Positions 7,399-22,333 of a DNA stretch of 64,000 nucleotides are shown piece by piece. A program made the translations under genes and the position numbers. The stretch covers positions 2,976,001 through 3,040,000 of the forward strand of contig NZ_CP034450.1 of NCBI RefSeq assembly GCF_003952505.1. Reading direction: 5' to 3'. Within the stretch, counting starts at the first letter, position 1, and each line of letters starts with the position of its first letter. The notes below the pieces were generated by a model. It ran no database searches, was not told where the DNA came from, and worked only from the letters and a program-made list of their open reading frames with translations. Source of the stretch: Mesorhizobium sp. M4B.F.Ca.ET.058.02.1.1. Its GTDB lineage: Bacteria; Pseudomonadota; Alphaproteobacteria; Rhizobiales; Rhizobiaceae.

Positions 7399-9627
<2,229 letters not shown>

Positions 9628-18590: not shown

Positions 18591-19409
18591 GTGAACAAGC
18601 CAACGTTCAATACCAATCGGGGCGGGCCGGCAGGCTGGACAATCAAGCTCGGTGATTCCCCCGTTATTGGCACGGCGATCCACAGCGGCTCCGACGTCGG
18701 GCCGACCTGCCAATCGCTCCTGTGCATTTCCAACTCGGACCGACGGAGGGAGGAAGACCCCTTCACCGAGCACTTTATCGCCGATTTCCCAACCCAGATC
18801 ATTGTTCATCGATCGCGCTTCCAAGTCGATCTGAACCGCGCGCGCGCGGCTGCGGTCTATCGGTCGCCGGATCAGTCCTGGGGTCTGAACGTATGGCGAG
18901 AGCCGCCTGCCGAGCACATTGTCGACGAGTCCGTTGCCTTTCACGACGCGTTCTACGGCGAACTCAAGCGTGTCCTTTCCGATGTCGAGAAACGTTACGG
19001 CAAGTTCGTCCTGGTCGACGTCCACAGCTACAACCACCGGCGCGAAGGGCCGACGGCAGCGGCTGCGCCGCAAGATGTCGCGCCTGACATCAACATCGGC
19101 ACATTCTCGATGGACCGCACGCGCTGGGCGCCGGTCGTCGACGCCTTTGTGGAAACGCTGCGCGGCCATCGTTTCCATGGTGACCCGATCGACGTGCGCG
19201 AAAATGTGTCTTTCCAGGGCAAGGGCGAACAGACCCGCTTCGTCCATGCCAATTTCCCCGAGACGGGGTGTGCCATCGCGGTCGAGTTCAAGAAGATTTT
19301 CATGGACGAATGGAGCGGCGAGCCCGACTGGGCGGCAATCGAACGACTGCGCGCCATGCTTGCGTCGACGGTGCCCGTGCTCGAGGCAGCGCTGCGGGGC
19401 ATGACATGA
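18591..19409 (+). CDS. N-formylglutamate amidohydrolase-like protein
   Basis: 272 aa. Family landmarks are AIHSGSD near residue 29, VHRSRFQVDLNRARA, the metal-site block VLVDVHSYNHRR near residue 145, and AVEFKKIFMDEWSGEPD near the C-terminus. Classical members hydrolyse N-formyl-L-glutamate in histidine breakdown, but no hut genes are present here, so another amide or amidine substrate is likely. The start is GTG with a GGTGGA element 6 bp upstream. The stop overlaps the start of the DUF1704 gene (ATGA), so the two are translationally coupled. Together with the ATP-grasp gene they form a compact trio. Confidence 0.85.
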   Translation: MNKPTFNTNRGGPAGWTIKLGDSPVIGTAIHSGSDVGPTCQSLLCISNSDRRREEDPFTEHFIADFPTQIIVHRSRFQVDLNRARAAAVYRSPDQSWGLNVWREPPAEHIVDESVAFHDAFYGELKRVLSDVEKRYGKFVLVDVHSYNHRREGPTAAAAPQDVAPDINIGTFSMDRTRWAPVVDAFVETLRGHRFHGDPIDVRENVSFQGKGEQTRFVHANFPETGCAIAVEFKKIFMDEWSGEPDWAAIERLRAMLASTVPVLEAALRGMT

Positions 19410-21274
19410 AACCGAAGCTGGTCCAGGCTGCCTCTCCGTTGGCGACAATCGAATCGGACCTCGACGCACTTTTCCGGGACGGTAAGCCGATCCGCCGCGA
19501 GTTCGGCGACGGCGACCGTTTGCACATCGATCGGCCGCTGCCCTTTCTCTGCGTCCATGTCGGCTCGCAGCAGGATGCGGCATTCGATGTTGTTTCCGCC
19601 AGTGCGTCCTATCTGATCGTGGCCAATGCCGGCTTCGCCGGCGAGGTTGCGCGGCTGATGGCGAAGAGGATACGCGATCGTTGCGGCGCATTCCTCGTAC
19701 TCGACATCGGCGAATTGGCCGAAGACCGGTTCCTGACGGAGGACGTTCCGTTCCTGCCGCCTTTCGAGATTGCACTGGCCGGCGGCGGCACGGCGGGTGA
19801 GAAGGCAGCGCTCAAGCGCTTCGCCGCCGCCGCGTCCGGACGCGACGCAAAATACCGCACGCCCCGCGTGGACGAATTCAATCCCACGACACGCGCCGAA
19901 GCACGGCTCCCGGACCATCTCGGCAATGTGGCGCGCCTGACGGTGCGCTTCGCGCCAATCTACAGGGTGCCAGGCACCGAGCGCGTCTATCCTGAATTAC
20001 GCGACCTCATCGTCGCCAACATGGTGGATTCGGCGCTTCAGGCCGTCAGCGCCTTTCTGAAGGCATCAAAGCTGGAACCGCCGGCAACCCATCGTTCGCT
20101 GGGGCGACGCGCCTATATCGACGCTGTCGTGCGCGCCGACCGGGCGCTCGACAGCGTCGCGTCGACATTCGATTTTCTGCTTGCCGTCACACCGATCAAC
20201 GCCGAACCAGCCTGGCAGGAATTCCAGGCCGGCGGCTTCGAGCGGATGCCTGCGCTGCTCTACAGGCCGCTTGAGTTCGAGGTTGCCGCGCAGAAGCGGA
20301 AGCTCTATTCGGTCTCCCTTGATCACCTGGAAGATCCGCTCCTGACCAGGCTGCTGTCCGAAAAGCAGCAGGAACTCGATCTTCAACTGTCGATGCTCGC
20401 GGCACGCGAAACGGCCAGCTTCGTCGAACTCGGTCGAGCACTGTATGGCAGCGTCGAGCCTAGCCTGGCGGCGAGGGCACGCACCATTCTCGAAAAGACG
20501 CCCCGCGTTGCTTCGACGGCCCGACAGAAGGGCCTGGGCGCCGACGCTGTCGCCGCGGCCGCGCGAGACATGATCGCCGGATACAGTGCCGCCTACGCCG
20601 ATTTCGACGCTTCCGTGGAGGTCCGCGCCGACCTGCCGGCCGGCCTCCTCGTCTCTCGGAACCGGCTGCTGGTTTCGCGCGACACCAATCTTCCACCGGA
20701 GCGACTGACCGCACTGCTCAGTCACGAGATCGGTGTTCATCTGCTGACCTATTTCAACGGCGATGCGCAAGGGCTCGCCATCTTCCGCAACGGGCTAGCC
20801 GGTTACGAGGGCATGCAGGAGGGACTGGCCGTGCTGGCGGAATATCTGGTCGGCGGCATGACCGCGGCGCGGCTGAGACTGATCGCGGCAAGGGTTATCG
20901 CGTGTCAGGCGATGCTCGCCGGCGCACCGTTTGAGTATACGTTCCGCGTTCTGCATGGTGATTTCGGTCTCGATGATCGCAGCGCCTTCAACGTCGTTCT
21001 GCGCGTCTTTCGAGGCGGCGGCTTGGCAAAAGACGCCATCTATCTGCGTGGCGTGGCGCAGGTTCTTGATCATCTGAAGAGTGGCGGCAGTCTCACGCCG
21101 TTCTGGATCGGCAAGATCTCCGCGGCGCATTTCGCCGATATCCAGGAACTCAACGCGCGCGGCTTGTTGCGGGCGCCGCGGCTCGAACCTGCGTTCCTCT
21201 CTTCCGACGCAGCGCGTCCACGCCTGAAGAAGGCGATGGCGGGGATCGATCCGATCGATATGGTTGAGACGTGA
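19406..21274 (+). CDS. DUF1704 (QEGLA-motif) zinc metallopeptidase, MATCAP-like family
   Basis: A 622-aa protein. The catalytic domain in the C-terminal half has a zincin motif H440-E441-I-G-V-H444 (SHEIGVHLLTYFNG), followed 30 residues later by Q471-E-G-L-A475 (YEGMQEGLAVLAEYLVGG), the motif that names the family; Glu472 is the probable third zinc ligand. The N-terminal 200 residues are unassigned. The annotation 'flavohemoglobin expression-modulating' is historical. The eukaryotic relative MATCAP removes the C-terminal tyrosine of tubulin, so carboxypeptidase action on a peptide or protein tail is a reasonable inference. It overlaps the amidohydrolase stop by 4 bp, and the ligase gene starts 12 bp after its stop. 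Confidence 0.85.
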   Translation: MKPKLVQAASPLATIESDLDALFRDGKPIRREFGDGDRLHIDRPLPFLCVHVGSQQDAAFDVVSASASYLIVANAGFAGEVARLMAKRIRDRCGAFLVLDIGELAEDRFLTEDVPFLPPFEIALAGGGTAGEKAALKRFAAAASGRDAKYRTPRVDEFNPTTRAEARLPDHLGNVARLTVRFAPIYRVPGTERVYPELRDLIVANMVDSALQAVSAFLKASKLEPPATHRSLGRRAYIDAVVRADRALDSVASTFDFLLAVTPINAEPAWQEFQAGGFERMPALLYRPLEFEVAAQKRKLYSVSLDHLEDPLLTRLLSEKQQELDLQLSMLAARETASFVELGRALYGSVEPSLAARARTILEKTPRVASTARQKGLGADAVAAAARDMIAGYSAAYADFDASVEVRADLPAGLLVSRNRLLVSRDTNLPPERLTALLSHEIGVHLLTYFNGDAQGLAIFRNGLAGYEGMQEGLAVLAEYLVGGMTAARLRLIAARVIACQAMLAGAPFEYTFRVLHGDFGLDDRSAFNVVLRVFRGGGLAKDAIYLRGVAQVLDHLKSGGSLTPFWIGKISAAHFADIQELNARGLLRAPRLEPAFLSSDAARPRLKKAMAGIDPIDMVET

Positions 21275-21286
21275 GCGGAGCCCCCG

Positions 21287-22333
21287 ATGCGCATTGCGTT
21301 CTTCGTCAATTCGATTGAGAGCGAGACGCCCGGCTACACGACGACAACGCTGGCGCAGGCCGCGGTTCAGCGCGGTCATTCTGTTGTCTACGTTGAACCT
21401 GGCGACTTCATACTGCGTCCGGATGACAATCTGGCTGTCAGCGTCGCTGTCCTGCCGAACGCTCCCTACAGGACGACCGACAAGCTGTATGCTGCCCTGA
21501 AGGATGCCGCGAAGCAGAAAAAGACCTTCCCGACAGGCGAAGTCGACATCTTGTTTCTGCGCAACGACCCGTCGCTCGACGCCACCGATCGACCATGGGC
21601 CGCCAACGCAGGCGTTATGTTCGGGCGGCTCGCTGCGGAACGCGGCGTCGTCGTCGTCAACGATCCGGACGGTCTGGCGCAGGCACAAAGCAAGCTCTAC
21701 CTGCAGACCTTCCCCGAGGCAGTTCGGCCGGCGACCCTGATATCGCGCAGCATTGTCGAGATCCGCGCGTTTATCGACAAGAACGCAAAGGGCTGCATCG
21801 TCAAGCCACTCCAGGGATCGGGTGGCAAGAACGTCTTCCATATCGCAACGCCTGCTGATTCCAACCTGAACCAGATTTTCGAGGCGGCCAGCGGTGACGG
21901 CTATCTCATCGCCCAGGTCTACATCCCGGAGGCCAAGGCCGGTGACGTGCGTCTCTTCCTGATGAACGGCCTGCCACTGATGCGCGATGGCAATTATGCA
22001 GCCTTTCGCCGCGTCCCCGCCAAGGGCGATGTTCGCTCCAACATCCACGCCGCCGGAACCGCCCGCAAGGTCAAGGTGACGGACACGATGTTGCGCATTG
22101 CCGAGATGGTACGCCCCAAATTGGTGAGCGACGGCATGTTTCTGGTTGGGCTCGACATAGCCGGCGACAAACTTCTCGAGATCAATGTGTTCACGCCAGG
22201 CGGGCTGTCGCGGCTCGCGGACATGTACAAGACTGATTTTGCCACACATGTCATCGTTGCGCTGGAAGAGAAGCTGACCCTGCGCCGGGCCTACGGAAAG
22301 ACCATGCCGAATTCGCGGCTGGCGACCCTTTGA
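21287..22333 (+). CDS. ATP-grasp ligase, glutathione synthetase-like
   Basis: A 348-aa protein with the GshB-type layout. The N-terminal preATP-grasp Rossmann domain (MRIAFFVNSIESETPGYTT) is followed by the central ATP-binding part with Lys173 and a glycine loop (VKPLQGSGGKNVF). The C-terminal metal-binding strands are DVRLFLMNGLP and LLEINVFTPGG. Such enzymes join a carboxylate, via acyl phosphate, to an amine. True glutathione synthesis is unlikely to be its only role: gshA lies 25 kb away and the partners here are a MATCAP-like peptidase and an amidohydrolase. An amino acid or peptide ligase acting on the product or substrate of those enzymes is inferred. Confidence 0.85.
   Translation: MRIAFFVNSIESETPGYTTTTLAQAAVQRGHSVVYVEPGDFILRPDDNLAVSVAVLPNAPYRTTDKLYAALKDAAKQKKTFPTGEVDILFLRNDPSLDATDRPWAANAGVMFGRLAAERGVVVVNDPDGLAQAQSKLYLQTFPEAVRPATLISRSIVEIRAFIDKNAKGCIVKPLQGSGGKNVFHIATPADSNLNQIFEAASGDGYLIAQVYIPEAKAGDVRLFLMNGLPLMRDGNYAAFRRVPAKGDVRSNIHAAGTARKVKVTDTMLRIAEMVRPKLVSDGMFLVGLDIAGDKLLEINVFTPGGLSRLADMYKTDFATHVIVALEEKLTLRRAYGKTMPNSRLATL

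Follow-up and report, generated by a model that had tools for sequence, protein, structure and literature searches.

The 64,000-nucleotide stretch of Mesorhizobium contig NZ_CP034450.1 analysed here (the window), part of a one-contig genome of 6.46 Mb, contains three consecutive genes for an amidohydrolase of the N-formylglutamate amidohydrolase (FGase) family, a metallopeptidase of the MATCAP/DUF1704/QEGLA family and a GshB-like ATP-grasp ligase. This trio is a real unit, the adjacency of its members being far beyond chance. We tentatively propose, with somewhat less than even confidence, that it forms an old, self-contained and probably cytosolic amide-bond module, which would both make and trim a small acidic, glutamate-type peptide amide.

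All three genes lie on the forward (+) strand. The stand-alone FGase-family gene (18591..19409) has a GTG start and codes for a protein of 272 amino acids (aa) with an M14-like zinc carboxypeptidase fold. The ATG of the MATCAP gene (19406..21274, 622 aa, MATCAP domain at residues ~240-622) overlaps the FGase stop by 4 bases, and 12 bases separate the MATCAP stop from the start of the ligase gene (21287..22333, 348 aa). The original prediction for this locus had described the genes as overlapping or nearly touching, which is exactly what is found. The named closest proteins come from Mesorhizobium, and third codon positions hold most of the differences from the relatives L019, L024 and L038 in all three genes. 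Because no signal peptide is apparent by eye on any of the three proteins, the module is probably cytosolic.

Linkage of the three genes

Two samples of genomes carry the argument for linkage. In one of them, genome contigs were scanned with an alignment of long MATCAPs and the best 80 of 181 loci were taken, from Mesorhizobium, Aminobacter, Devosia, Rhizobium, Ensifer, Shinella and others; as these were picked by similarity to long MATCAPs, they show the linkage for the long form only. The window and two loci of further alphaproteobacterial families (L016 and L017) bring the number of long-form loci to 83. The order FGase-MATCAP-ligase on one strand is kept in all 83, and the 4-base overlap of FGase and MATCAP recurs in 73. 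The less biased sample was a single draw of 397 genomes from the phylum, which to judge by the listed handles served both the MATCAP and the ligase scan. PF08014, the MATCAP family, matches in 53 of these genomes. Ligases over the cut-off of NF009110, the subfamily of the trio ligase, occupy 14 loci in 12 genomes; they score 436-488 bits, the next best protein 241, and by coordinates a MATCAP gene adjoins every one of the 14. Seen from the other side, 14 of 15 MATCAP genes of long or fused type come with the ligase, L137 being the sole exception (the 15 include one gene truncated near a contig end, G469:C47, and leave out the contig-end fragment G469:C132 and the untyped fragment G559). The earlier expectation that such trios occur in other proteobacteria is confirmed. 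The FGase is adjacent in 4 of the 14 ligase-bearing loci (the window, L131, L138 and L140) and fused to MATCAP in 6, one of these being degenerate (L132); of the other four, L139, L142 and L144 are described below, and L143 was not assigned.

Elsewhere, chiefly in marine gammaproteobacteria, a single polypeptide combines FGase and MATCAP, and the ligase is encoded next door. This fusion with the ligase upstream was seen in six loci, and both Pfam domains are present in 120 of 120 homologues of one fusion, among the matches listed (1015 found). At the position of the fused FGase, the MATCAP of Rhizobiales carries an FGase-like domain that lacks FGase catalytic residues (19406..20119, +, residues ~1-238 of the window protein), a probable pseudoenzyme domain. 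The positions of FGase H145 and E232 are clearly lost in it; the loss of His31 is uncertain, for this residue aligns to position 53 of long MATCAPs, where His occurs in 0 of 90, and position 51 is His in 63 of 90. Judged from these alignments, the Rhizobiales protein is probably a live-looking carboxypeptidase bearing a dead domain.

A tree of 55 MATCAP domains was calculated; its midpoint root serves for drawing only, the program warning that long branches meet there. The short forms in it, from 26 of the 28 short-form loci that were fetched (L156, L168 and the split L018 were left out), make up one clade (support 100/100). Long MATCAPs form another (100/99), beside which the fused forms group with three 393-aa forms (100/97). 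Long and fused MATCAPs group together (100/100), apart from the short ones, each on its own side. Since the ligase is present on both sides of the split between long and fused forms, its association with MATCAP should be older than that split. We rejected short MATCAPs as members of the same system: they are a separate clade, and the trio-type FGase and ligase profiles match nothing beside MATCAP in 29 of 29 fetched stretches, except for a RimK-like gene ~5 kb off in L153. In L009 and L010 (G082:C39), MATCAP was matched as two separate pieces, a frameshift or pseudogene.

Identity of the three proteins

All three family assignments of the original prediction hold, each protein scoring over the curated cut-offs. 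The FGase reaches 74.8 bits with PF05013 (cut-off 28.9) and shows the fold and the His/Glu/His set of the family. Its residues H31, E54, E55, H145 and E232 are invariant in 38 sequences and, by analogy with the family, putatively bind metal or catalyse. It falls far short of the HutG equivalog TIGR02017 (23.5 bits, cut-off 278.75).

The MATCAP protein scores 303.5 bits with PF08014 (cut-off 27) and 358.4 with TIGR02421 (cut-off 338.65). H440, E441 and H445 of the HEIGVH motif (440-445), together with E472 of QEGLA (471-475), are the same in every one of 90 aligned long-form proteins, which gives the HExxxH signature and a third, Glu ligand. In annotations, bacterial MATCAP proteins go by the name "flavohemoglobin expression-modulating QEGLA motif protein". 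Within the parts of the literature that our searches reached, no function for them was found, and we discarded the one that this name implies: the phrase occurred only in PMC10308900, in the accessible part of which it is a table row, giving no function, on a Photobacterium protein whose fold change at 1% NaCl was positive.

The ligase belongs to NF009110 (PRK12458), with 457.2 bits against a cut-off of 408. A Pfam scan with E up to 0.001 listed GSH-S_ATP, GSH-S_N and RimK domains and no TTL domain. The protein stays below both GshB equivalogs (TIGR01380, 196.4 vs 299.05 bits; NF003573, 209.9 vs 272) and below both RimK models (32.5 vs 331 and 60.1 vs 143.4). Residues 28-329 nevertheless align with E. 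coli GshB at E 1.3e-33, and K136, K173, D290, E298 and N300, which 95% or more of the 96 trio ligases share, meet identical residues in that alignment; their counterparts in GshB take part in ATP and metal binding. After the conserved Asn, the printed trio ligases read NVFTPGG, NVFSPGG or NVLSPGG (NVFTPGGL in the window), whereas E. coli GshB has NVTSPTC, which suggests another acceptor than that of GshB. A second PF02955 locus of the genome (G000:C1:4018634) scores higher, at 249.7 bits, and represents a separate GshB locus; the trio ligase is a paralogue distinct from this housekeeping enzyme. Known or putative catalytic residues are intact in all three trio enzymes, and their loss on alignment, which would have told against the original idea, is not seen.

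Possible function

We suggest the following course of events. The ligase would spend ATP to join an amino acid to the carboxyl of a small peptide-like acceptor. The MATCAP-type metallopeptidase would take off the C-terminal residue, and the FGase would cleave an N-acyl or isopeptide amide at an acidic residue of glutamate type, a kind of bond that its relatives attack as well. The degenerate FGase domain on the MATCAP of Rhizobiales may dock the substrate or a partner. Given that no conserved fourth gene was found next to the module, the most likely substrate is some common acidic peptide of small size or an amino-acid conjugate. Three arguments favour a small acidic peptide: relatives of GshB and FGase have small glutamate compounds as substrates, the union of two hydrolases in a single chain fits one small substrate, and the genes are linked to none for a protein partner. 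Two further observations point the same way. The fold class of FGase also includes poly-gamma-glutamate hydrolases, and RimK-type or Rlo-type ATP-grasp genes stand beside the trio in L132, L138 and L143, a shared context in few cases. From the near-constant ligase, the FGase fusion and the degenerate FGase domain, the function can be narrowed down to the editing of one amide-type bond.

Several points weigh against this proposal. The trio enzymes might work in a different order, or each on a molecule of its own. A protein target is favoured by human TMCP1 and TMCP2, the only MATCAP relatives with a characterised activity that were found, whose substrates are protein tails according to the accessible part of PMC10499314. 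By structure, the FGase match of the N-terminal half of MATCAP is tied with other M14-like enzymes. In L132, the FGase part of the FGase-MATCAP fusion (7498-9480) has lost HSY and EVKK, and no other FGase was found in the 17.5 kb stretch, where a RimK-like ligase gene is nearby; an active FGase is therefore not available in every case. The 13 kb stretch of L142 likewise yielded no FGase, and in L139 and L144 it lies 1.4-2 kb off. The second long MATCAP of one genome (L137:8158-11110) adjoins an enzyme of AstE/AspA type (PF24827), another family for acylated acidic amino acids, and a trio-type ligase was not found in its stretch; this is possibly a swap of the amidohydrolase partner. Finally, three 393-aa MATCAPs nested with the fused forms (L145-L147) have no FGase domain, and neither partner was found in their stretches.

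Other explanations were considered as well. That the genes are chance neighbours with no common function has, in our opinion, next to no chance of being true, as the linkage statistics, the two gene orders and the FGase-MATCAP fusion speak against it and nothing was found in its favour. Reversible C-terminal tagging of a housekeeping protein, where the ligase adds a residue and MATCAP removes it in the manner of TTL/MATCAP or RimK/RimB, is unlikely. The peptidase is indeed kin to human MATCAP. From what is accessible of the two papers, RimK, for which a link with the peptidase RimB is described, extends the C-terminus of RpsF with glutamates (PMC12239564), and TMCP1 and TMCP2, which are sensitive to penultimate Glu, remove first Tyr and then Glu from the tails of tubulin (PMC10499314). 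A housekeeping substrate would be possible at a locus where no substrate gene was found. The ligase, however, is of GshB type, has no TTL domain listed and stays far below the RimK equivalog cut-off, and an accessory trio would be unusual for modification of a core protein. Moreover, we know of no place for an FGase partner in the tubulin cycle. The original prediction had drawn just this parallel, of an add-and-remove cycle like that of MATCAP and TTL. It is supported in part: the kinship of the peptidase stands, but the ligase turned out not to be TTL-type and no conserved partner peptide emerged, so that the analogy is no more than possible. A tagging cycle on a cellular protein whose acidic end would be recognised by FGase, live or dead, as a bacterial counterpart of the tubulin tyrosination cycle with a GshB-type ligase, seems quite unlikely to us.

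Salvage would be a different role: FGase and MATCAP degrade an N-acylated or formylated acidic peptide, imported or cell-made, and the ligase recaptures one product. FGase-family kinship, the fusion of both hydrolases in one lineage, the sugar ABC importer operon adjoining the trio of S. meliloti ml28 and the plasmid-borne, accessory distribution all agree with it. We still regard it as unlikely, since the sole transporter-like cluster around many loci (ABC ATPases, 43 stretches) adjoins the trio in 2, it would be odd for a purely catabolic pathway to have, as its constant companion, a dedicated ligase that spends ATP, and the FGase is no HutG equivalog by score. Least credible among the biochemical roles, and to our mind very unlikely, is a second glutathione synthetase whose accompanying hydrolases recycle glutathione or a conjugate. 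NF009110 does carry the name glutathione synthetase, and the alignment with E. coli GshB is extensive. Both GshB equivalog cut-offs are missed, though, the genome has a second, better-scoring PF02955 locus and the motif after the conserved Asn differs.

Neighbouring genes and distribution

Called genes of at least 40 aa were clustered in 89 stretches (the 83 long-form trio loci and 6 short-form ones). The biggest non-trio cluster has 58 members in 43 stretches, ABC-transporter ATPases as judged by eye from 7 sequences, and adjoins the trio in the two loci mentioned above only; each remaining non-trio cluster is present in at most 13 of the 89. Of the genes directly next to the trio in the 83 loci, those upstream belong to 20 clusters, with 28 left unclustered, and those downstream to 19 clusters, with 37 left unclustered. 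Small same-strand open reading frames (ORFs, up to 130 aa) occur no more than 400 bases upstream of FGase in 18 of the 83 loci (9 in one Mesorhizobium cluster, 5 in one Ensifer-type cluster, 4 unclustered) and within 400 bases downstream of the ligase in 8. They are lineage-bound, and these counts led us to reject them as the general substrate. Neither the gene clustering in 89 stretches nor the small-ORF survey of 83 loci revealed a conserved fourth gene or precursor-like neighbour, in keeping with the remark of the original prediction that no precursor peptide gene is obvious. The co-conserved small partner protein which it had envisaged did not materialise in any general form. A small secreted two-cysteine acidic protein was rejected as a general substrate as well: a motif scan of the loci from L011 upwards gave hits in L139, L142 and L144 (two in the last) and nowhere else. 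These apparently secreted proteins near the trio (L139:4237-4509, L142:11036-11338, L144:13174-13895) come from one bacterial group. In the other lineages, 8 of the 13 trio loci among L131-L144 have a LysR gene, always of one sequence cluster, somewhere in their stretch.

In the window, a poly-gamma-glutamate-hydrolase-like gene (PF05908, 23770-24423, -) was noticed, of a family which we take to share the broad fold class of FGase. Its match ends at profile position 134 of 191 and its coding score is weak; it is probably a decayed gene.

The trio is an accessory trait, often carried on large plasmids. MATCAP was not found in 8 listed same-genus genomes of the phylum draw, though many Mesorhizobium species have it. 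A plasmid search returned matches to the MATCAP protein in 116 of 72,556 records, 79 of them from Sinorhizobium and including pSymB of S. meliloti 1021, where all three trio genes are in place at ~1122942-1126743 of NC_003078.1. On pSymB of S. meliloti ml28 (L176), the trio is flanked by an exopolysaccharide biosynthesis gene with a small hypothetical gene, and by the importer operon, which is of galactofuranose type. A phage or defence link was rejected: phage records gave no match to the MATCAP protein, and the PADLOC anti-phage models gave 0 families for each of the three trio proteins.

As S. meliloti 1021 is a model symbiont, the trio it carries is a directly testable system. If the substrate were found, it would reveal a new peptide metabolite or a new protein tag, and would also help to tell what the ancestral activity was in a family whose animal members trim tubulin tails. 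A protein tagging cycle, if true, might show where eukaryotic MATCAP came from.

Comparison with known systems

Human MATCAP/TMCP1 and TMCP2 (KIAA0895L and KIAA0895) share PF08014 and 21% identity with the window protein, which differs from them in its added degenerate FGase domain and in belonging to a type nearly always paired with a ligase. HutG shares the FGase family, but the trio FGase, far below its equivalog cut-off, is linked instead to a peptidase and a ligase. With GshB, the trio ligase has in common the two-domain ATP-grasp architecture and the Lys/Asp/Glu/Asn positions; it forms a separate subfamily, set apart by its scores and its motif. Amidoligase/peptidase neighbourhoods in which ATP-grasp ligases are linked with peptidases, like the trio in kind, were reportedly described by Iyer et al. 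in 2009. Our literature searches, covering their sources in part and not that review, found no paper on this three-gene combination.

RimK/RimB of Pseudomonas likewise unites a ligase and a hydrolase in one operon, as given in the accessible part of PMC12239564, but there a RimK ligase works with an aspartic peptidase, whereas the trio has a GshB-type ligase, a HExxxH metallopeptidase and an M14-like amidohydrolase. RloABC of Pseudomonas again combines an ATP-grasp protein and a peptidase, and its three families (PF05618, PF14400/PF14402 and PF14397) lie directly 3' of the trio ligase in L138 (4265-7277) and L143 (2688-5679). The secreted retropepsin-like peptidase and the 7TM inactive transglutaminase of Rlo are both missing from the trio itself; the trio and its nearest neighbours in the window belong to other families. 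Taken together, the trio is by the tests made not HutG, GshB, RimK, TTL or RloABC, and its proteins are members of PF05013, PF08014 and NF009110. An ATP-grasp ligase linked with hydrolases is a kind already known, and the combination of these three may be new.

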